DNA from: Chloroflexota bacterium | GTDB lineage: Bacteria; Chloroflexota; Anaerolineae; JAAYEA01 | DNA: 34,260 nt | Reading direction: 5' to 3' | Assembly (NCBI GenBank): GCA_019873665.1 | Contig: JAIOAV010000002.1 | Span: forward strand, 79,485-113,744 | In this document: positions 10,035 through 19,692 of the stretch, piece after piece | Position numbering within the stretch: the stretch's first letter is position 1 | Layout of the letters: every line of letters starts with the position of its first letter | Made by a program: the position numbers and the translations under genes | The notes under the pieces: model-generated | Databases searched by the model: none | What the model was told of the DNA's origin: nothing | What the model saw: the letters and a program-made list of their open reading frames with translations, nothing else

Positions 10035-11012
10035 CTATAGCGGCAGCGTAACCGGCGCGCCGCGCAGCGCGGCGCTCTGATAGCACGCTTCCACCAGCTC
10101 CACCGCCTTGTAGCCGTCCGTCGCCGTCACCGGCGGCACCTGGCCGTTCACCACCGCGTCCACAAAGAGCCGATCCTCCTCGCGGTAACCCCATTTGTCG
10201 GCGACATCGAGCTGAAAATAGTCACGCACCACGATCTCTTGCGCCAGCCCGGGCGAATACGTTACGCGCTCCATCTCTTCCGTGACGATGGAAGCGTGCC
10301 CGCCATACAGCTCGATCCGCTCAAACGGGAACGCCCACGAGGTATGCGCCGACGAGGAGAACGCGGCAAAATGCCCGCTGGCGAAGGTCAAGATCATGGC
10401 AAAGTCATCCTGCTCAGCGCAGATGTTCTGCTGCGCCTTGCACTGCACCTCGACGACCTCCCCCATCAGCCACCGCGCCATATCCAGCAGGTGGATGGTG
10501 GACTCGTAAAGAAAGCCGCCAGTCACGGCCCGGTTGCATACCCACTGTGGGTTGATCAACTCGCCACGATTCATCTTGATGTTGGCCGAATAGGGGTGAA
10601 ACCCCTCGTCAATCAATCGTCGGGCGAACTTGTACACCGGCGCAAAGCGTCGGTTATGCCCGACCTGATAGAGCGCGCGGCTCTTTTGCGCCGCCGTGAC
10701 AATGTCGCGCGCTTCCTGCAAAGTCGTCGCCATCGGCTTTTCCGAAAAGACGTGAACTCCCCGCGCCAGCGCCTTGAGCACGGCCTCCGTGTGCAGCGTG
10801 TTCGGCGTGCACACGTACACCGCATCTGGCCATTCCGCCAAGAGCACGTCGGCACTAGGAAACGCCTTCCCTCCCACCTCGGCAGCCAGAGACTGAGCGG
10901 GCCGCTCCATGATATCCGCCACGCCGATGATCTCCACGCGCTGATCCTGCTTCAGGTTGCGGGCATGCGTTCTGCCCATATGACCCGCGCCGATAATCCC
11001 GATCTTGACCAT
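10035..11012 (-). CDS. Gfo/Idh/MocA oxidoreductase, IolG-like inositol/sugar dehydrogenase
   Basis: This 325-residue NAD(P)-dependent dehydrogenase has a Rossmann domain with GIIGAGHMG (5-13) and the family EKP motif at 91-93, whose Lys is catalytic. In the substrate domain GGFLYESTIHLLDMARWL carries H174 and D177. The catalytic Asp of B. subtilis IolG, four residues before the His, is replaced here by E170. The family oxidises inositols and sugars at a ring hydroxyl, so a myo-inositol 2-dehydrogenase role fits the cluster. The Glu substitution warns that the substrate may differ. It is the last gene of the LacI-led operon, 15 nt after a TIM-barrel isomerase gene. AGGAG stands before the ATG at 11012. 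Confidence 0.88.
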   Translation of the reverse strand: MVKIGIIGAGHMGRTHARNLKQDQRVEIIGVADIMERPAQSLAAEVGGKAFPSADVLLAEWPDAVYVCTPNTLHTEAVLKALARGVHVFSEKPMATTLQEARDIVTAAQKSRALYQVGHNRRFAPVYKFARRLIDEGFHPYSANIKMNRGELINPQWVCNRAVTGGFLYESTIHLLDMARWLMGEVVEVQCKAQQNICAEQDDFAMILTFASGHFAAFSSSAHTSWAFPFERIELYGGHASIVTEEMERVTYSPGLAQEIVVRDYFQLDVADKWGYREEDRLFVDAVVNGQVPPVTATDGYKAVELVEACYQSAALRGAPVTLPL

Positions 11013-11027
11013 TTCTCGCTCTCCTCT

Positions 11028-11984
11028 CTATGCCAATAACGCCCGCGTCGCCGCCAGCGCTTCGTCCAAGTGATCGGCGTAACGCGGGCGAATCTCCAGC
11101 GTAATCAACCCCTCATAGTCCGTCAGTAGCTGCAGCGCCTGGCGCAGCGGTATTTCCCCCCATCCCGGCGGCATATGCAGATCGCCCTGCCCCAGCGGCA
11201 GCCGTTCTCCCTGATCCGACGTATAGCCATCGAGCTTGCCAAAATTGTCGTGCAGATGGATATGACGCACATAGGGGGCGGCCCGTCGCACGGCATCCAG
11301 AAAGTCAAAGCCGCAGGTCCGCGCCGCGATATAGGTGTGCCCGGTATCCAGCGTCATCCCCAGCGCCGGATGGCCCACGGCGTCTATCTGCGCCGCCACC
11401 TCTTCCACCAGCAAGCCAGGATGATATGTCGGCAGCGCCTCGATGCCGAGTCCGGCACGTGTCAGCGTTGCCACCTCCCAGAGATGCGGGTCGCGGTTTT
11501 CCATGGCGATCACGACGCCGAGCTCCGCAGCGCGCTCGGCCAATCTCTGCAACGCCGCCATCTCCCGCTTTCTTCGCTCCGCCATTGTCTGCGCGTCGGG
11601 CAGGGGAGCCAGGCCCCAGTAGGCGTCATGCAAAGCCACCAGGCCGCTGTGATACACATAGATCGTCGCCTCTACTTCGGCGCTGAACTCGAGATAGGCT
11701 GCCAGCGCCTTCTCGGCGACCCGATCCGCTGTATCGAGCTGCAGGTTGAGGTCACACGGGCCATGCACCGCGTAGCGCAGTGGGTAGCGTCGCGTGATCT
11801 CTTTCACGCGCGCCACCCGCTCCCGGTGCAGCCGTCCGTTGATCACAGCATTCACCCCATAACCCGATAGCTCGGCGCCATCATAGCCGAGCGCCACAGC
11901 CCGCTCCAATTCCTGCTCCAATGCGGACAGCCGGCCATTCAGATGCCCGCCGTCAATATTGATCGCGATCCCTTTCACGCTCAT
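11028..11984 (-). CDS. Xylose-isomerase-like TIM barrel (sugar epimerase), copy 1
   Basis: This 318-residue protein belongs to the AP-endonuclease-2/xylose-isomerase-like family, whose members isomerise or epimerise keto-sugars with a divalent metal. Expected ligands are visible: E162 (AMENRD), D213 and H216 (TLDTGH), H241/H245 (HIHLHDN) and E297 (TLEIRP). It shares the unusual block GDLHMPPGWGEIP (268-280) with the second barrel protein at 13278-14183, and the two N termini also match (SVKGIAINI and SIKGIGINI). Thermotoga IolO, the 5-keto-L-gluconate epimerase of inositol breakdown, has this fold. That role is an inference from context. AAGGAG stands 6 nt before the ATG at 11984. It lies between the transporter and the Gfo/Idh gene. 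Confidence 0.85.
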   Translation of the reverse strand: MSVKGIAINIDGGHLNGRLSALEQELERAVALGYDGAELSGYGVNAVINGRLHRERVARVKEITRRYPLRYAVHGPCDLNLQLDTADRVAEKALAAYLEFSAEVEATIYVYHSGLVALHDAYWGLAPLPDAQTMAERRKREMAALQRLAERAAELGVVIAMENRDPHLWEVATLTRAGLGIEALPTYHPGLLVEEVAAQIDAVGHPALGMTLDTGHTYIAARTCGFDFLDAVRRAAPYVRHIHLHDNFGKLDGYTSDQGERLPLGQGDLHMPPGWGEIPLRQALQLLTDYEGLITLEIRPRYADHLDEALAATRALLA

Positions 11985-12008
11985 CCGCTGCTCCTTGGCA
12001 AATGGATT

Positions 12009-13277
12009 CTAGACTGCCTGTGATATGCGCCGCTTGCGCCATAGCGCGGCCATCATGAACATTCCCATTACGGCGGCAGCGATCCAGAAACCGAACGCCA
12101 CTCCCCAGCCCCAGCGATCCGCCACGACGCCGGAGAGGACACCGCCGATGCCGGCGCCAACATAGTTGCTGAAATCGAGAAAGCCTGCCGCGGAGGATAC
12201 CCGCCCTTCCCCGCTCTGCGTCATCGGCAACGCCGTCAGCAACAGGCCATTGGCGCCATTGCTGAGCGCGCCGATCAGTCCCAACGCCAGCGGGATGGCA
12301 GCCAGGCCGAACGCCGCGACGAGGGGGCGATAGAGCACAACCGCCAGTGCCAGTCCGGCAAAGAGGCCGATGCCGACCGGCGCCTCCTCAGCGCGGAAGA
12401 AACGGTGCGAGACCCATCCCGCTAACACCACGCCAACGCCACCCGCCAGCGGCAGCCAGATGGCATTGGCAGCGGCTTGCGTGATGCCAAATCGGTACAC
12501 CTCGGATAGATAAGTCGGCGTCCAGAGGGTAAAGCTCTCTTTCACGGCGCCGAGACAGACGCATGCCAACGCGGCCAGTGGTAGCCGGGGATGGCGCAGC
12601 ATGTACATCCACGCCTCTCGCATGCCTCCCTGTCGCAGCGACGTCGTTCCATTTGTCTCTGGCGCGGGCAGTCCCACGTCCGCCGGCGCATCGCGTACGC
12701 GCCACACCCAGTGCGCCGCCGAGAGGATGAGCAGCGCCGCTGGCGTCCAGAATGCCGCCCGCCAGCCAACCCGCGCGATGAGAAAGCCCGCCAGCAGCCA
12801 TGAGACGATGTGCCCGGCAGTGTAGCAGGGGCCAAAGATGGCAGTCACACGGGCGCGCTGGCGACGGCCAAACCAATTGCCCAGCACGCGCATGATCGGT
12901 CCCCACCCTGTCGCCTGGACATAGCCATTCGCGCCCCAGATCAGCGCCAGCAGGAGGAGACGGTTGGAGAAGCCAAAGCTCAGGTTGGCCAGAGCAGAGC
13001 CGATGAGGCCCGTCGCGACAAAGAGGCGCGGGCTCCACCGATCCCCCAGCACCCCGTTGACGAGTTGGCCCAGCGCGTACACCCAGAAAAAGGCGGTGCC
13101 GATCCATCCCGTCTCCGATTTGGTCCAGCCCAAATCGGACTGCAAGGCAGGCAAGGCCACAGCCAGATTGACACGGCCCAGATACAGGCTGGCATAAGTG
13201 AGCCATGATGTGACCAGGATGCGTCGCTGCCAGTGGCGCAGCGCGACACGCCGCTCGTTATCGTCCGCCTGTGGCAT
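12009..13277 (-). CDS. MFS transporter, OPA-like (organophosphate/acid uptake)
   Basis: This 422-residue protein has about twelve hydrophobic helices. The first helix contains LYLGRVNLAVALPALQ, and the NGYVQATGWGP and LGNWFGRRQRAR blocks follow. These resemble the organophosphate:phosphate antiporter (GlpT/UhpT) and related anion:cation symporter branches of the MFS. Such transporters carry sugar phosphates or organic acids. Its ATG (13277) directly abuts the TAG of the preceding TIM-barrel gene, so the two are probably translationally coupled. The operon context makes it the likely importer of the catabolised substrate. A phosphorylated cyclitol or a sugar acid is more likely than a neutral sugar, but this is inference. 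Confidence 0.87.
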   Translation of the reverse strand: MPQADDNERRVALRHWQRRILVTSWLTYASLYLGRVNLAVALPALQSDLGWTKSETGWIGTAFFWVYALGQLVNGVLGDRWSPRLFVATGLIGSALANLSFGFSNRLLLLALIWGANGYVQATGWGPIMRVLGNWFGRRQRARVTAIFGPCYTAGHIVSWLLAGFLIARVGWRAAFWTPAALLILSAAHWVWRVRDAPADVGLPAPETNGTTSLRQGGMREAWMYMLRHPRLPLAALACVCLGAVKESFTLWTPTYLSEVYRFGITQAAANAIWLPLAGGVGVVLAGWVSHRFFRAEEAPVGIGLFAGLALAVVLYRPLVAAFGLAAIPLALGLIGALSNGANGLLLTALPMTQSGEGRVSSAAGFLDFSNYVGAGIGGVLSGVVADRWGWGVAFGFWIAAAVMGMFMMAALWRKRRISQAV

Positions 13278-14183
13278 CTATGCTGCGCGCTCCTCTGCGG
13301 TCAGCGCTGCCAGGCGGCGCACTTCCTGTAGCACCTGTGGGGCCAAGTCGGCAAAGCGCGATTGCAGCTCGATCGTCAGGACGGCGGGCGGGGTGCGCAA
13401 GCTAGCAAAAGCCTGCTCGAACGGGATCTTGCCCCAGCCAGGCGGCAAGTGCATGTCGCCGATGCCAAAGGGAGAGGTGTAGATGTACGGCACACTGAAG
13501 GGTATTTCCACGTCCAGCCCGAAATTGTCATGGACATGGAAAGTGGCAATCAACGGCGCGGCCAGACGGAACATCTCGAGGAAGTCCTGCTTGTGGTGCC
13601 TCACCGTGAGAAAGGCGTGGCCCAGGTCAAAGGTGATCCCCACGGCGGGATGCGCGGTCTCTTGTACTTGCGCCACAAGCTGGGTGATGTCGCTACTGTA
13701 TGAGTCGGTGTCGCCGTTTTCCACACCGATCACGATACCCGCCGCCGCGGCCAGGTCGCCCATCTCGCGCAAGGCTTCACGCTCCATCGCTTTCAGTTCG
13801 GCGAGCCCCCGCCCTGACCGCTCGTTGGTGAAATCGAGCCGCCCGGCATGATATACGATCGCCTCGGCGCGAATCCGCTGCGCAAAGGCGATAGTGGCGC
13901 GAAAGACATCCTTCTGCAAGTCGTGGTAGGTGGCATCAAAGAGATTGAGCGGGTCGGGCGCATGAACCGTGTAGCGAAAAGGCAGGTCGGAGAGGATCTC
14001 CACCACGCGGCGCACGCGCGGCTCGCACAGTTGTCCCCCAAAGATAGCGTCCACGCCATGCGCCGGGATCTCGGCATAGTCGAACCCACACGTGGCAAAA
14101 TACCGCAGGTCCTGCTCTAGGAGTTGCAGGTCGCCGTTGATCCGGCCTGAATGGATGTTGATGCCAATCCCCTTGATGCTCAT
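13278..14183 (-). CDS. Xylose-isomerase-like TIM barrel (sugar epimerase), copy 2
   Basis: This 301-residue paralogue of the barrel protein at 11028-11984 has metal-site candidates E155 (GVENGD), D186 and H189 (TFDLGH), H216/H218 (FHVHDN) and E272 (TIELQ). GDMHLPPGWGKIP (242-254) matches the block in copy 1. An in-frame ATG at 14216 exists. The one at 14183 has GAGGAG 6 nt upstream and aligns with the start of copy 1, so it is preferred. It follows a 130-nt gap that holds a long inverted repeat, and abuts the transporter start codon. The two copies may act on successive keto-acid intermediates or on different epimers; an IolO-like step is plausible for one of them. Confidence 0.85.
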   Translation of the reverse strand: MSIKGIGINIHSGRINGDLQLLEQDLRYFATCGFDYAEIPAHGVDAIFGGQLCEPRVRRVVEILSDLPFRYTVHAPDPLNLFDATYHDLQKDVFRATIAFAQRIRAEAIVYHAGRLDFTNERSGRGLAELKAMEREALREMGDLAAAAGIVIGVENGDTDSYSSDITQLVAQVQETAHPAVGITFDLGHAFLTVRHHKQDFLEMFRLAAPLIATFHVHDNFGLDVEIPFSVPYIYTSPFGIGDMHLPPGWGKIPFEQAFASLRTPPAVLTIELQSRFADLAPQVLQEVRRLAALTAEERAA

Positions 14184-14221
14184 CTTTCTCTCCTCATGAT
14201 CCGCATTGCACGACATAGAGA

Positions 14222-14280
14222 ACGGGCACCCCCTGTGTGGTCAGGAATTGGCATATTCTGCACACCTTTGGGGTGCCCGT
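14222..14280 (-). repeat. Long intercistronic stem-loop in the catabolic operon
   Basis: Arms 14222-14232 and 14270-14280 are perfect 11-bp inverted copies (ACGGGCACCCC / GGGGTGCCCGT). Inside them GTGTG (14235-14239) and CACAC (14261-14265) extend the stem past small bulges. The loop is about 20 nt. It separates the second zinc dehydrogenase gene from the downstream barrel gene. It lacks a U tract, so it may be a partial terminator, an RNA-stability element or a repetitive palindrome. Confidence 0.65.
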
Positions 14281-14313
14281 CAACTGGTAATCGGCTCTGG
14301 CCGTGTCAGTTGC

Positions 14314-15342
14314 TCAGGACGGGAGGATCAGTACCTTGATCGCCTCGCCTGCGCGCATGGCTGCAAAGCCCCTCTCGATCTCGGCCAGCGGGAGTTGATG
14401 CGTCAGGAACACAGATGGCTTGATCACGCCGCTCTCCAACATCTTGATGGTCGTCGGGAAGGTATTGATGCCGATAAAAGTGCCATAGACCGTCAATTCC
14501 TTGCGCGTGATATCATACTGGCTGATGGCAGGACGGGCCTGTTGGTTCATACCAAACAGCACGATCTTGCCGCCCACAGCTGCAACATCAATCGCCTGAC
14601 CAAAGAGCGCGCCCACTGCATCTACGACGACGTCCGCGCCGCCTCTGGTCTTGATGCGGATATAGGCAGTGGCATCCTGCTCCTTGGCATTGACCACATC
14701 AAAGCCGGCATCTGCCGCCAGTTTGAGGCGATAGGGCGCGATATCAGAAAGGACAATTCGGCCGGCGCCCGCCGCGCGGAAGAACACGGCGAACATCAAG
14801 CCCACTGGCCCCGCACCCAGGATAGCCGCCGTCTCGCCTGGCTGCAAGCGGACTTTGCTCGTGCCGCCCACCACGCAAGAGAGGAGCTCGGTAAAGACGG
14901 CATCTTGCAGCGGCACATGCTCGGCAATCTGAAAGAGCGCTCGCTCTGGCGCCAAACTATACTTGGCAAAGCCGCCATTTAGGTAGATGCCCAGCGTGGT
15001 GAAATCCTCACACTGGTTAGGCCGTCCTGCCTGACAGGCGCTGCACAAGCCGCAATACAAGTTAGGCGCCACGACCACGCGATCGCCCGGCCTAAAGTGC
15101 GAGACTCCCTTGCCCACCTCCAGCACACGCGCCACATACTCGTGTCCCAGGACCGCGCCAGGTGTCGCCGGGTGTCCCGGCGGCACCTCCAGGATGTGCA
15201 CGTCGGTGCCGCAAATCCCCGCCCCTTCCACTTGCAACAAAACATCCTCGGGATTGCTGATGCGGGGCACCGGCACTTGTTTGAGGGCCAGCTTGCCCTC
15301 TCCCTCAAAGACGGCCGCCAACATCGTCTGCTCTTGGCTCAT
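14314..15342 (-). CDS. Zinc-dependent medium-chain dehydrogenase (polyol/sugar type)
   Basis: This 342-residue enzyme has the MDR fold. Catalytic zinc ligands are C44 (GICGTDVH), H67 and E68 (LGHEY), with E152 in ELLSCVVGG as the likely further ligand. The structural zinc site is complete: C97, C100, C103 and C111. The cofactor loop is GAGPVG (176-181). Family relatives include sorbitol/L-iditol, threonine and other polyol dehydrogenases, so it probably oxidises a secondary alcohol on a polyol or sugar acid with NAD. AAGGAG stands 8 nt before the ATG at 15342. It sits 2 nt behind the IolM-like gene and is co-transcribed with it. It may act earlier or later in the same pathway; the substrate is unknown. 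Confidence 0.88.
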   Translation of the reverse strand: MSQEQTMLAAVFEGEGKLALKQVPVPRISNPEDVLLQVEGAGICGTDVHILEVPPGHPATPGAVLGHEYVARVLEVGKGVSHFRPGDRVVVAPNLYCGLCSACQAGRPNQCEDFTTLGIYLNGGFAKYSLAPERALFQIAEHVPLQDAVFTELLSCVVGGTSKVRLQPGETAAILGAGPVGLMFAVFFRAAGAGRIVLSDIAPYRLKLAADAGFDVVNAKEQDATAYIRIKTRGGADVVVDAVGALFGQAIDVAAVGGKIVLFGMNQQARPAISQYDITRKELTVYGTFIGINTFPTTIKMLESGVIKPSVFLTHQLPLAEIERGFAAMRAGEAIKVLILPS

Positions 15343-15344
15343 GC

Positions 15345-16514
15345 CTAGCTCTCCTTGTCGGTCATGACAACCATGATCTTGCCGTCACGGCGCTCGGTGG
15401 ACTGGCGGATGGCATCCACCACGTCTTCCAGCTTGTAACGCGCCGTGATGATCGGCCGCAGGTCAATCAGCCCAGAGGCCATAAGTCGGATGACGTTCGG
15501 GAAGTTGGCATCACCAGAGTGGCCCTGCGCACCATAGATCTGCGCGCGACGCACCTGGAAATGTTCCAGGTAGAGCGGTACCCGCTGTGCCGCACGGCCG
15601 ATTTGCACGATCTTGCAGTTGATGGCCATGGCACGCTCCATCTGCGGCAGTGTCAGATGCGGTGCGCCAGCCGCCTCCACCTGGAAATCTGCCCCCTCGC
15701 CGCCCGTCAGGTCCATAATCACATCGGCCGGCACGACAGCGCGCGGGTCAAACACATGATCCGCCCCCACTTTGGAGGCTAGGCTGCGTCGGTTCTCCGA
15801 CACCTCAAAGACGATCACCTTGGCTGCTCCCGCCGCCTTGCAGAGGGCGGTCGCCGCCAGACCGATTGGGCCAGCGCCAAAGACGACCGCGTAGGCCCCC
15901 GGTTTGAACCCACCAGCCCGCGAGAAGATCGCATTGTATGACACGCTGGTGGGCTCCACCAGTGCCCCCGCTTCATAGACTTTGGTCTCGTCGTGGTAAC
16001 GGTCCATCAGCGCGTTCAGCTTCCAACAATACTTGGCGCCGACGGCGATATAGTTAGCAAAAGCGCCGTTGATGGTAAAGCCGATCTCCTCCAGGTTGGT
16101 GCAATGATTGGGGAAGCCATTGCGGCAGGGCGTGCAATGACCGCACCAGATCATCTCCTCCGCCGTCACCATATCGCCTACCTGCAGGTCTTTGACATTC
16201 GGGCCAACCTTCACGATGCGACCCGAGAACTCGTGCCCCAGCACTGACGGGAATTTCGTCAGGCCCGGATACAGGATGTAGTTGTCCTTGTCCGTCTCAT
16301 AAAAGTGCATATCAGAGCCGCATACGCCACACGCCTTGACTTCGATGAGCACATCATCTGGCCCGATCTCCGGTGTCGGCAGCGTCTCGACGCTCAGATG
16401 TGGATTCCGCCAGACGGCGCTGCCCGTCGCTGCCTTGCCTGTCGTCCGCTCAAAATCGGAGAGCGCATACCCCTCGCGTGGTTGCCAATCCGCCCGTAGT
16501 ACCAGCCCTCTCAT
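15345..16514 (-). CDS. Scyllo-inosose 3-dehydrogenase-like zinc enzyme (IolM type)
   Basis: This 389-residue MDR dehydrogenase has C65 (GVCGSD), H94 and E95 (LGHEF), E187 (LVEPTS), structural zinc cysteines C124, C127, C130 and C138, and cofactor loop GAGPIG (213-218). Several blocks match what I recall of Thermotoga maritima TM0412 (IolM): the VWRNP start, NYILYPGLTKFP, EEMIWCGHC, GFPNHC, LVEPTSVSYNA and FQVRRAQIYGAQGHSG. IolM oxidises scyllo-inosose (2-keto-myo-inositol) to a diketo compound with NAD. This is the best functional clue in the operon. An ATG at 16544 is in frame, but AGGAG is 8 nt before the ATG at 16514, so that start is used. The gene lies 49 nt after lacI. Confidence 0.85.
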   Translation of the reverse strand: MRGLVLRADWQPREGYALSDFERTTGKAATGSAVWRNPHLSVETLPTPEIGPDDVLIEVKACGVCGSDMHFYETDKDNYILYPGLTKFPSVLGHEFSGRIVKVGPNVKDLQVGDMVTAEEMIWCGHCTPCRNGFPNHCTNLEEIGFTINGAFANYIAVGAKYCWKLNALMDRYHDETKVYEAGALVEPTSVSYNAIFSRAGGFKPGAYAVVFGAGPIGLAATALCKAAGAAKVIVFEVSENRRSLASKVGADHVFDPRAVVPADVIMDLTGGEGADFQVEAAGAPHLTLPQMERAMAINCKIVQIGRAAQRVPLYLEHFQVRRAQIYGAQGHSGDANFPNVIRLMASGLIDLRPIITARYKLEDVVDAIRQSTERRDGKIMVVMTDKES

Positions 16515-16563
16515 GTTTCTCGCTCCTCTCTTTTGCTCTGTCATATAGACTTCTAGTAATGTC

Positions 16564-17565
16564 CTACTCGCCCAAACGCTGACAAGACTCGCGAATCACC
16601 AAATATGTGGGCAGAATGATGTCTTGCACCTCCTGCCCGGCCACCAACCCCAGCGCCATCCTCGTCACCAGGCGGCCCATCTCGTTCTTGTGTTGCGCCA
16701 CGGATGTGAGGGGCGGTTCCGTGTAGGCGCTAAACGAGATGTCATCAAAGCCGATCAGGGAAAGATCCTGCGGCACGCGGATGCCACGGCGACGGGCATA
16801 GCGCAGCGCACCGATGGCGGTCATGTCGTTGTAGCAAAAGACGGCAGTCGGCGGATCTGGCAGGGAGAGCAAGAGCTGCAAACCCTTCTCTCCGCCGTGC
16901 GGCTGGCCGGTGCCTTCCGCGACAAGGGAAATATCGGGAGTGATGCCGGCAGCTTGCAGCGCTTCGTGATAACCACGCATGCGGTGCGCGCTGGACTTGC
17001 GATCGGCAGAGCCGGTGATATAGCCGATACGCCGGTGGCCCAGCGACAGCAGATACTCGGTTGCCTGTCGACCTCCGCCCACGTCGTCGCTGGCTACCAC
17101 ATGCACGCTGCTGCTGCTCTGCTCGTTGTTGACCAGCACGATCGGGACCTGGATCTTTTCCAGCAAGGGAAGATAGAGGTCGCCGACACGCGATGCCGAG
17201 ATGATCACGGCATCCACGCGCTGCGCCCGCAGCGCATGTACCGCCGCGATCTCGCGGCTGACCTCCGAGTTGGACTGGGCAAGGATGACGTTGTACCCCT
17301 GTTCGAGAGCCATCTCCTCGATGCCACGCACGACTTCGGCGATGAAGGGGTCTGCGATCGTGGTCACCACCAGGCCAAGCGTGCCGCTGTGCTTGGTCAC
17401 CAGGCTCCGCGCCGCCGCATTGGGCGAATATCCCATCTCCATAGCCAGTTGTTGCACGCGTCGTTTTGTCTCCTCTTTGACGAGGGGGCTGTCGCTAAGC
17501 GCGCGGGAGACAGTGGAGTGGGAAACACCTGCTGCCTTGGCGATGTCTTTGATTGATATAGGCAT
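16564..17565 (-). CDS. LacI-family transcriptional regulator of the catabolic operon
   Basis: This 333-residue DNA-binding regulator starts with the LacI helix-turn-helix and hinge (SIKDIAKAAGVSHSTVSRAL, then GYSPNAAARSL). A periplasmic-binding-protein-like ligand domain follows from about residue 62 (LGLVVTTIADPF, FCYNDMTAIGAL, IGFDDISFSAYTEPPLTSV). Such proteins bind a sugar or related inducer and release the operator. It is the first gene of the seven-gene operon. A perfect 14-bp palindrome with a central CG, as LacI proteins prefer, lies just downstream of its own -10 box. Autoregulation of the whole operon is therefore likely. The inducer is probably an intermediate of the pathway encoded behind it. 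Confidence 0.92.
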   Translation of the reverse strand: MPISIKDIAKAAGVSHSTVSRALSDSPLVKEETKRRVQQLAMEMGYSPNAAARSLVTKHSGTLGLVVTTIADPFIAEVVRGIEEMALEQGYNVILAQSNSEVSREIAAVHALRAQRVDAVIISASRVGDLYLPLLEKIQVPIVLVNNEQSSSSVHVVASDDVGGGRQATEYLLSLGHRRIGYITGSADRKSSAHRMRGYHEALQAAGITPDISLVAEGTGQPHGGEKGLQLLLSLPDPPTAVFCYNDMTAIGALRYARRRGIRVPQDLSLIGFDDISFSAYTEPPLTSVAQHKNEMGRLVTRMALGLVAGQEVQDIILPTYLVIRESCQRLGE

Positions 17566-17596
17566 CCTGTCCTCCTACATCCCGAATCGCCACCAG

Positions 17597-17610
17597 TGCA
17601 CACGTGTGCA
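17597..17610. promoter_or_regulatory. LacI-type operator (perfect 14-bp palindrome)
   Basis: TGCACACGTGTGCA is a perfect palindrome with a central CG, the shape typical of LacI-family sites. It starts 6 bp past the lacI -10 box and covers the predicted transcription start, so bound repressor would block initiation. Confidence 0.75.
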
Positions 17611-17616
17611 ATTCTC

Positions 17617-17644
17617 ATTATAGCAGAACTTCTCCTATTGTCAA
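17617..17644 (-). promoter_or_regulatory. Promoter of lacI-led catabolic operon
   Basis: Minus-strand TTGACA (17644-17639), a 16-bp spacer and TATAAT (17622-17617) both match the consensus perfectly. The -35 box overlaps the -35 box of the divergent promoter on the plus strand. Confidence 0.85.
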
Positions 17645-17696: not shown

Positions 17697-18017
17697 ATGA
17701 TCAGAGCAGAGATCAAAGCGGGGATCTGCAACCTGCACACGGTGGTGGAGGCGGATTCGTCAGACGGGATGACAGTGCAACTGCGCATCGAGAGTGACTG
17801 CCCTCAGGTGCGCGCCCTGGCGGCTGAACTGACGGAGATAGACGCCCTTCAGGAGCTTTTCAAAGCCCAGAAGGACACGGGCATCCTGGCGTTGGCCGCC
17901 AAACACAGGTTGCACACCTCATGTGTTGTCCCTGTGAGCATTCTCAAAGCCATCGAGGCCGCGGCTCAGATGGCGTTGCCCGCCGAATCCTCCATCGCGT
18001 TGCGCAAGCAAGGATGA
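17697..18017 (+). CDS. Small conserved cysteine protein (resembles DUF6951)
   Basis: This 106-residue soluble protein has three cysteines, each in a motif: C11 (KAGICNLHT), C35 (IESDCPQV) and C76 (TSCVVPVSILKAIEAA), ending in MALPAES. The pattern resembles the small DUF6951 family. The function is unknown; the three cysteines could bind a metal or cluster, or be redox active. GGGAGGA stands 7 nt before the ATG at 17697, and a good promoter precedes it. It is transcribed away from lacI through overlapping -35 boxes. A link to the catabolic operon is possible but is not shown by the sequence. Confidence 0.75.
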   Translation: MIRAEIKAGICNLHTVVEADSSDGMTVQLRIESDCPQVRALAAELTEIDALQELFKAQKDTGILALAAKHRLHTSCVVPVSILKAIEAAAQMALPAESSIALRKQG

Positions 18018-18336: not shown

Positions 18337-19641
18337 CTAATCGGCCAGCTTCAGCCCCAGCACCCTCTCCAGGTTGCCGATGAGAAACGCGTGGGCCAGT
18401 TCCAGCGCGCCATCTACGGAAAGAGGCGACATGTTGGGATGAATCTGGCTGACCTCGATCCGCGTTGCTAGCGCCTTGGCCAGCTCAAACTTGTACATCC
18501 GGAACTTGGGAAAAACAAACTCCAGATAATAAGCATCAGAATAGTAGCCAATGGACTTGGTCCATGGCACCGCATTCAGCCGCCGCTCCAGTTCCCGCGC
18601 GATATCGGTGGGCTGATTCGAGTACCACCAGTGCCCGGAGGGGAACACATTGTGGCGAATCCAAGCGGCGGCTGTCAGCTCCAGGCCGGAGGTATCGGCA
18701 AGCACCGACGTGGGGAAGCGCACATCCGGATAGTGGTTGAACAAGTAGTCGTAACCGCGCAGCGAGTTCACCCCGTCGAACAAATCCGTGCCGCTGGGCA
18801 CGCCTTGCTCATACACGCTGCGATTCACCCCGACCATCAGATGAAACGGCACCTGATATCTGCGGCAACGGTCAGCCACCTGGTTGATGCCGTAAGCAGC
18901 CCAGAGCGCCTTGTCCGCCTCGCTGAGATTCCCGCCAGCCACCGCCTTGTCCAGCACGCCAGCCGCCTGCTCGTCCGAGACAGGCCGCGTCTGCAGGTTG
19001 GGCGGCGTGCTCAGGGCGGCATACGCCATCTTGAGTTCTGCAAAACGCGCGAATGCCTTGTCCAGCGCCTGGCCAAAGCCAGAGACCGTGCGCGCATCAA
19101 CGCCGGCAAAGGCGCTTAGCTTGTCCCACTCGGCGGGCTTGAGAGCATACTCCATGAATGGGTCGACGCGCAGGCAAGGTGTATAGAACCGAGTATCAAC
19201 TCCGGTGAGATCGTCATCGTACGAGTTAGTGAGAAAGACGCGCTTGATGTTGCCTTTGGCAACGACTTGCTGCCAATAGTCCGGTGCATCTATCGTCCCT
19301 TGTGCGCGATCAAAGATCCTGTCCGCATTCTCTGCTCGCCAATCCTGACGCGGTATCCCATAAAGCGTCTCACACAGCGCCATCAGCCAGTCGTACTGCA
19401 CGGTATTGCGGATCAGATGCAGCTTTTGCAGCAGCACCTGCGTGAAGCGACGTGGCTGATCCAGCGGAAACTCCTGTGGCTGATACTCCGCCGCATTGAC
19501 AAGCTCAGTGTAATAATGATAGCTCAATATGTCGGCGATGCTACGCGCCGTACTGTGCTGGGGCCGGATATGCGTATGAGGGTCATAGATAGGCCAACGA
19601 TCGATCTCGGTGTAGAGATGTTTGACCAATGCGGAATCCAT
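18337..19641 (-). CDS. UxaC-like uronate isomerase family protein
   Basis: This 434-residue amidohydrolase-superfamily protein is related to uronate isomerase, which interconverts glucuronate/fructuronate and galacturonate/tagaturonate. The N-terminal metal motif is PIYDPHTHIRP with H22 and H24, matching PIFDYHCHLPP in E. coli UxaC. Other parallels are NSYDDDL, the FHLMVGVNR strand, the SGHWWYSNQ block (SGWWFNDQ in UxaC) and GYYSDAYYLEF (MLTDSRSFLSY in UxaC). It is about 35 residues shorter than UxaC and divergent, so the substrate may differ. GGAGG stands 5 nt before the ATG at 19641; an ATG at 19659 overlaps that site and is rejected. It follows the sensor kinase gene by 51 nt on the same strand. 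Its likely chemistry suits the tagaturonate end of the nearby cyclitol operon. Confidence 0.75.
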   Translation of the reverse strand: MDSALVKHLYTEIDRWPIYDPHTHIRPQHSTARSIADILSYHYYTELVNAAEYQPQEFPLDQPRRFTQVLLQKLHLIRNTVQYDWLMALCETLYGIPRQDWRAENADRIFDRAQGTIDAPDYWQQVVAKGNIKRVFLTNSYDDDLTGVDTRFYTPCLRVDPFMEYALKPAEWDKLSAFAGVDARTVSGFGQALDKAFARFAELKMAYAALSTPPNLQTRPVSDEQAAGVLDKAVAGGNLSEADKALWAAYGINQVADRCRRYQVPFHLMVGVNRSVYEQGVPSGTDLFDGVNSLRGYDYLFNHYPDVRFPTSVLADTSGLELTAAAWIRHNVFPSGHWWYSNQPTDIARELERRLNAVPWTKSIGYYSDAYYLEFVFPKFRMYKFELAKALATRIEVSQIHPNMSPLSVDGALELAHAFLIGNLERVLGLKLAD

Positions 19642-19692
19642 CCTGTCCTCCCGTTGCATGCAATGTGCTCCTGCGCCATCGCCTGGGCCGAC

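Follow-up and report, generated by a model that had tools for sequence, protein, structure and literature searches.

The window analysed here is a stretch of 34,260 nucleotides (nt) of a Chloroflexota bacterium (assembly GCA_019873665.1, contig JAIOAV010000002.1, positions 79,485 to 113,744), and the subject of this text is a cluster of seven minus-strand genes within it, in the order LacI > IolM > ADH2 > barrel A > MFS > barrel B > Gfo/Idh (Table 1). An earlier reading of the letters alone, made without database searches (the sequence-only reading), described the cluster as a LacI-led operon for a Thermotoga-type oxidative inositol pathway. The operon is confirmed as a minus-strand cluster with intergenic gaps of 0 to about 100 nt, preceded by a promoter and a palindrome, and its seven genes presumably share a single transcript. 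Comparisons were made throughout with the window's own assembly (G000; 4.16 Mb, 91.5% complete) and with G400, a relative of the same family and a different genus.

Table 1. Positions in the window of the seven genes and of the sites ahead of them
Feature	Position	Strand	Basis or remark
Promoter TTGACA-16-TATAAT	17617..17644	-	12/12 consensus positions, TG ahead of -10; consensus match only
Putative LacI operator TGCACACGTGTGCA	17597..17610	.	perfect 14-bp palindrome, 6 nt past -10
LacI-family regulator	16564..17565	-	PF00356, PF13377
IolM, scyllo-inosose 3-dehydrogenase	15345..16544 (alternative start 16514)	-	NF041097, PDB 3ip1, tree
Zinc dehydrogenase ADH2; predicted alternative inositol dehydrogenase	14314..15342	-	PF08240/PF00107, own clade
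Barrel A, TIM barrel with endonuclease IV-type metal site; predicted phosphodiesterase	13278..14216	-	PF01261, nine ligands
MFS (major facilitator superfamily) transporter, OPA-like; predicted organophosphate importer	12009..13277	-	TIGR00881 below cut-off; PDB GlpT match
Barrel B; predicted phosphodiesterase	11028..11984	-	PF01261, nine ligands via alignment
Gfo/Idh/MocA dehydrogenase, IolG-like; predicted inositol dehydrogenase	10035..11012	-	TIGR04380 below cut-off

Inositol oxidation genes

IolM scores 567.5 bits on its NCBIfam model (cut-off 450) versus 222 on the threonine dehydrogenase model, and its best solved relative, 3ip1, is found at E 4e-118. In a tree of 21 rows, with six other G000 dehydrogenases as outgroups (long branches flagged; characterised sorbitol and threonine enzymes not among the rows), the operon protein is one of 11 IolM proteins that form a clade with 100/100 support, and ADH2 belongs to a different clade, of 4 proteins, with the same support. 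Several members of the IolM clade come from operons that also hold IolN. The model score and the clade bear out both the scyllo-inosose dehydrogenase and the Thermotoga-type inositol oxidation of the sequence-only reading. IolM is rare in the phylum, being above cut-off in 9 of 400 genomes, own genome counted. The operon protein is 72% identical to that of G400, where a single operon, LacI-IolM-IolG-IolN-IolO, encodes four enzymes above their cut-offs (537, 483, 300 and 328 bits).

ADH2 is indeed a second zinc dehydrogenase, with 201 bits on the IolM model. The last gene of the operon had been assigned to the IolG family; it encodes a Gfo/Idh protein that is IolG-like and scores below the IolG cut-off, with 173.7 bits on TIGR04380 against 355. 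In two Thermotogaceae, the Gfo flanked by IolM and IolN is 42-45% identical to this protein. No IolG above cut-off is found in the G000 assembly at its 91.5% completeness (best 199.5 of 355), and the operon's own dehydrogenases would therefore be needed. Among 20 IolM loci, several of which lie on stretches that end nearby and which include two same-genus pairs (L017/L018 and L019/L020), Gfo/Idh occurs without ADH2 in nine, ADH2 without Gfo in five, neither in five and both only in the window; ADH2 thus shares a stretch with IolM in 5 of the 19 further loci. Because of this split and the lack of a canonical IolG in G000, ADH2 is probably an alternative inositol dehydrogenase.

IolN, as had been remarked before, is not seen among the operon's seven genes. 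The pathway as a whole does not lack it, since contig C155 of G000 encodes IolN (319.3 bits on NF041098, cut-off 245); IolO is encoded on contig C43 (339 bits on NF041099, cut-off 300). Partial IolN copies lie on C139 and C60 (188 and 84 bits). With IolN on C155 and partly on these two contigs, the possibility that the two barrels substitute for an absent IolN was ruled out. The DNA of C155 is 89-92% identical to that of C139 and C60, so that G000 holds two versions of the IolN neighbourhood (L041, L043, L044). The G000 bin therefore mixes more than one strain, and the ownership of these genes is not certain.

Metal site and neighbours of the barrels

The two barrels share 35% identity, and PF01261 is the only domain detected in either; PF03009 (GDPD) was not found. 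The sequence-only reading took them for IolO-fold proteins, of which the PF01261 fold holds and the IolO-like identity does not: neither matches the IolO model at E 0.001, their metal ligands are those of endonuclease IV, and their relatives keep company with organophosphate genes. The NCBIfam deoxyribonuclease IV models likewise give no match to the window barrels at E 0.001 (a Thermotogaceae barrel reaches 33 of 333 bits), and the best NCBIfam model for both is CbiR (NF041277), with 44.2 and 30.4 bits and a cut-off of 105.

The CpEndoIV structure, in the part of PMC13113976 that describes it, has nine metal ligands in the order H,H,E,D..H,H,D.H,E. In a global hhalign profile alignment, all nine of barrel A (H85 H123 E166 D197 H200 H227 D254 H256 E283) fall onto those of E. 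coli Nfo (H69 H109 E145 D179 H182 H216 D229 H231 E261), and alignment with barrel A and its relatives yields H74 H112 E162 D213 H216 H243 D268 H270 E297 for barrel B. Three IolO proteins cover only five of the nine Nfo positions (I/T,-,E,D,H,H,-,-,E). At the four extra positions FrlC matches three letters and UlaE one, and one IolO, compared with the barrel B profile, has H at one of them. All nine ligands are present in 80 of 81 aligned barrels (the two of the window and those of 79 related loci), the remaining one being cut by a contig end; since D254 and H256 belong to the search motif that retrieved the loci, seven of the positions are independent. Judged by these aligned ligands, barrels A and B carry an endonuclease IV-type metal site.

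Several results limit how far this likeness can be carried over to function. The alignment of barrel A with Nfo is weak (13% probability when global; 22% when local, covering six positions only), and the profile of barrel B failed to align to Nfo. In structure searches the closest match is MJ1311, followed by epimerases, and endonuclease IV is not among the matches listed by Foldseek and VIA-align. The structure models are confident, with pLDDT values of 93 (barrel A, AlphaFold) and 86 (barrel B), except for loop 247-271 of barrel B, which carries D268 and H270. Sequence-profile matches are MJ1311 (7e-23), IolI (2e-9), an endonuclease IV (4e-8) and T. maritima IolO (1e-3). The MJ1311 structure paper reportedly noted that the nine endonuclease IV ligands are conserved. 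With an activity that is predicted only, a fold nearest to epimerases and a weak endonuclease IV alignment, the phosphodiesterase chemistry of the barrels is a prediction.

The gene neighbourhoods bear on the same question. The best 80 of 229 barrel relatives from one scan, which make up the 79 distinct loci, were kept; genes were picked there by composition score, labelled via BLAST to references and clustering, and counted by class within 8 kb. IolM, IolN or IolO lies near the barrel in 15 of the 79 loci (BLAST), which come from several phyla. By model, IolM is above cut-off in L054 and L065, IolN and IolO in L071, and IolO in L093; IolO shares the barrel's cluster in L054, L071, L093 and L112. 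Two Thermotogaceae have the order IolM-Gfo-IolN-kinase-IolO-PCC-SBP (binding protein)-permease-permease-ATPase-barrel, in which the kinase label rests on PfkB by Pfam in L054, the L150 gene itself being without a Pfam match. PhnI/PhnJ mark another 16 loci as belonging to C-P (carbon-phosphorus) lyase, and the barrel directly follows PhnM in all of them (L055, L058, L059, L064, L075, L078, L079, L083, L086, L087, L088, L091, L095, L096, L100 and L109). The PhnM, PhnI and PhnJ labels were confirmed by models in L058, L087 and L109, with PhnI and PhnJ named by Pfam and without an NCBIfam name at E up to 1e-60. PhnP is above cut-off in none of the 16 C-P lyase genomes (a relative of 98-133 bits occurs in 4), and the C-P lyase-linked barrels are candidates for the step that needs a cyclic phosphodiesterase.

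In 34 of the 79 loci, 11 of them also iol loci, an ABC ATPase immediately precedes the barrel; 25 loci fall in none of the three classes, and 12 have no upstream gene on the contig. UgpC is the best model for the four ATPases tested, above the cut-off of 432 only in L115 of Rhizobium sullae (535, next to a UgpB-like protein with 344 of 411 bits) and below it in L050, L054 and L085 (410, 422 and 410). The Rhizobium/Ensifer ABC operons that cluster with L115 (L103, L105, L114, L115, L120, L122 and L124) end in a barrel, at the position expected for UgpQ. Within the phylum, a close barrel occurs in 4 of 400 genomes, 3 of these with IolM, and the co-occurrence without the own genome has a chance p of 0.001, computed after the result was known. 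Overall, the barrels appear, from these neighbours, to travel with organophosphate genes.

The transporter encoded between the two barrels, taken for an OPA-type protein in the sequence-only reading, is OPA-like: its closest PDB relatives are E. coli GlpT (3.6e-29) and SLC37, with 191.7 bits on TIGR00881 (cut-off 407.75). R45 of GlpT is kept, R269 is replaced by K, K80 by Q and H165 by Y; R45 and R269 are the phosphate-binding pair of GlpT. In G400, an MFS (61% identical) and a barrel B (64%) form a separate pair apart from the iol genes, and because this pair stands alone, MFS and barrel B look like an import-and-cut module.

The putative LacI operator and its sites

The palindrome TGCACACGTGTGCA occurs exactly in only two places of the G000 assembly, at the window operon and on contig C44, versus 0.03 expected from a first-order Markov model. 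On C44 it lies 5 nt past TTGACA-17-TAAGAT (judged by eye) and precedes a FAD glycerol-3-phosphate dehydrogenase/oxidase-type gene (261 of 460 bits, best model; DAO and BFD domains), which is followed by a Pyr_redox gene and a DUF1667 gene. On C8, a site with one mismatch lies some 480 nt ahead of ABC transporter genes. The same three settings recur in G400: an exact operator stands ahead of LacI-IolM-IolG-IolN-IolO, a one-mismatch site upstream of ABC transporter genes (the binding protein shares 71% identity with its C8 counterpart), and another ahead of a GlpA-GlpB pair 70-71% identical to the C44 counterparts. This pair adjoins GlpK (538 bits, cut-off 498) and a PF03009 gene (glycerophosphodiesterase family). 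A CbiR-like PF01261 barrel (57 of 105 bits) adjoins the GDPD-family gene in this operator-linked glycerol-3-phosphate cluster (L170:10173-11743, contig C450).

The operon's LacI is 52-58% identical to the LacI of other IolM operons. Genomes G208, G276 and G192 each have one exact operator, at a LacI-inositol operon, and G011 has one with 1 mismatch. L071 and L112 carry exact operators at the promoters of barrel-IolN-IolO operons, and these are the only exact sites in the 0.93 Mb of the 79 loci. Sites with up to one mismatch outnumber those of the reversed pattern in G400 (6 vs 1), G208 (2 vs 0), G276 (1 vs 0) and G192 (3 vs 0), and equal them in G011 (1 vs 1). At up to two mismatches G000 has 14 places versus 6 for the reversed pattern, so that two-mismatch sites are near background. 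No operator is present at the MFS-barrel pair of G400, and some sites lie outside the regulon picture, namely two one-mismatch sites by an SBP_bac_5 gene on C137 and one site on C533 in G400, C1:3190633 in G208, and ten of the eleven two-mismatch sites of G000. A palindrome with two mismatches to the operator, TGCACAATTGTGCA, lies directly past TATAAT on contig C50 of G000 (L157:4209-4222), ahead of an inositol-3-phosphate synthase-like gene (TIGR03450, 447 of 638 bits).

In the window as a whole, neither Rfam models (gathering) nor a tRNA search gave any match. A DUF6951 gene (17697-18017, plus strand) has a divergent promoter-like site, TTGTCA-16-TATAAT, which overlaps the LacI promoter region. 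Beyond it, a UxaC-like protein (18337-19659, minus strand; PF02614 27.6 bits; PDB 4i6v, 'Amidohydrolase 2', E 5e-92) adjoins the operon, and its membership was ruled out by the divergent gene and promoter in between.

Proposed function and known systems

Because the LacI sites span inositol oxidation and a glycerol-3-phosphate dehydrogenase-type cluster, and because the operon combines an antiporter-like importer with metal barrels, we propose a substrate made of inositol, phosphate and glycerol. The operon would serve to take up, hydrolyse and oxidise an inositol phosphodiester, of which glycerophosphoinositol is the most probable, and to feed a variant of the Thermotoga-type inositol pathway, a reading to which we give a probability of roughly 0.6. 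Glycerophosphoinositol is a breakdown product of phosphatidylinositol. The reading also fits the suggestion, made from the letters alone, that the pathway might handle an inositol derivative. It builds on the gene content, ligands, neighbours and operator sites described above, from which we infer every reaction and substrate. LacI, whose site is conserved, would bind the palindrome just past the -10 element and repress until an inducer is present; the OPA-like MFS would import the diester; and barrels A and B would hydrolyse it at a three-metal site to inositol and glycerol-3-phosphate, and one barrel may act on the diester and the other on a further ester. Glycerol-3-phosphate could then pass to the GlpA/GlpB/DUF1667-type complex whose cluster carries the same operator. 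The Gfo/Idh enzyme or ADH2 would convert inositol to inosose, and IolM, on the strength of its family membership, inosose to the diketone. The parts of PMC3750489 that concern T. maritima report a lack of growth on inositol and an IolR unresponsive to inositol and inositol phosphate, and both facts fit the glycerophosphoinositol reading.

Other explanations share much of this evidence. The barrels may be phosphodiesterases with a different target, either an inositol diester other than glycerophosphoinositol, for instance di-myo-inositol phosphate, or an inositol cyclic phosphate: ligand set and context suit any phosphodiester, and Thermotogaceae, which make di-myo-inositol phosphate, carry the barrel in an iol cluster. 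The operator at glycerol-3-phosphate dehydrogenase-type clusters, exact in G000 and with one mismatch in G400 (near GlpK and the GDPD-family gene), points instead to glycerol phosphate as half of the substrate, and we regard a different diester as unlikely. A second alternative, close to the sequence-only reading, makes the barrels IolO/IolI-like isomerases or epimerases through which other isomers or derivatives of inositol would enter the IolM route. It draws on the fold being nearest to epimerases, on matches that include IolI (1i60) and T. maritima IolO, and on the existence of IolI-type inosose isomerases. Against it stand the missing IolO-model match and the four extra conserved ligands, a position after PhnM (16/16) or UgpC-like ATPases (four tested) where inosose is not expected, and a true IolO that is encoded besides and co-clusters with the barrel in four loci. 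An isomerase role seems improbable, and an IolO-type epimerase was set aside as the main reading on the strength of the IolO model, the ligand set and the gene context. It is highly improbable that this is an inositol operon of the usual kind whose MFS and barrels do something unrelated; the separate MFS-barrel B pair of G400 shows that the module can live apart from iol genes, yet 15 of the 79 loci, spread over several phyla, have such genes near the barrel, and the same exact operator lies ahead of barrel operons in L071 and L112.

More broadly, and at slightly worse than even odds, the barrels may represent an unrecognised endonuclease IV-like family of bacteria and archaea that hydrolyses small-molecule phosphodiesters: glycerophosphoinositol in inositol operons, glycerophosphodiesters after UgpBAEC, and cyclic ribose phosphate in C-P lyase operons, where it would replace PhnP. 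The Thermotoga 'inositol' cluster would then really serve glycerophosphoinositol, and the failure of T. maritima to grow on inositol would be accounted for. The proposal turns a set of 'sugar phosphate isomerase/epimerase' annotations into a single prediction open to test, namely a family of three-metal phosphodiesterases whose partners are known. If true, it gives the Thermotoga pathway its missing substrate and bacteria a route for using glycerophosphoinositol, offers a candidate for the enzyme that completes the C-P lyase pathway, and joins inositol and glycerol-3-phosphate metabolism in one LacI regulon. None of the titles, abstract openings and passages covered in the open-licence PMC literature makes this assignment (subscription papers lay outside the search).

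Among known systems, the nearest is the oxidative inositol pathway of T. maritima with IolG, IolM, IolN and IolO, reportedly described by Rodionova et al. in 2013. The likeness lies in IolM above cut-off in the operon, IolN and IolO above cut-offs elsewhere in the assembly, and the barrel after the ABC genes of the two Thermotogaceae clusters. The operon differs in leaving IolN and IolO outside, in its MFS in place of an ABC transporter, in the additional ADH2 and the two barrels, and in a Gfo/Idh protein below the IolG cut-off. Its regulator is a LacI, whereas the part of PMC3750489 on T. maritima IolR places it in the ROK family. CbiR, in the relevant part of PMC7733943 a cobamide-remodelling phosphodiesterase, is a PF01261 protein and the best NCBIfam match of both barrels, from which it is set apart by their 44 and 30 bits (cut-off 105) and by the absence of a cobamide gene among the operon's seven. 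With endonuclease IV (Nfo) the barrels share the PF01261 fold and nine metal ligands, and they differ in lacking a deoxyribonuclease IV model match at E 0.001 and in their small-molecule gene context. MJ1311 (PDB 3wqo), an archaeal protein that the PDB lists as 'uncharacterized protein', is the closest match of barrel A in sequence and structure, with H, H, E, D..H, H, D.H, E conserved in the alignment. In E. coli, glpT-glpQ pairs a transporter gene with one for a glycerophosphodiesterase, and in ugpBAECQ, ugpQ lies beside the transporter genes; GlpQ and UgpQ are GDPD-family enzymes. The barrels, unlike these two, belong to PF01261, and the arrangement is nevertheless that of glpT-glpQ, with a transporter adjoining a predicted phosphodiesterase, and in Rhizobium with UgpB/UgpC-type ABC genes followed by a barrel.

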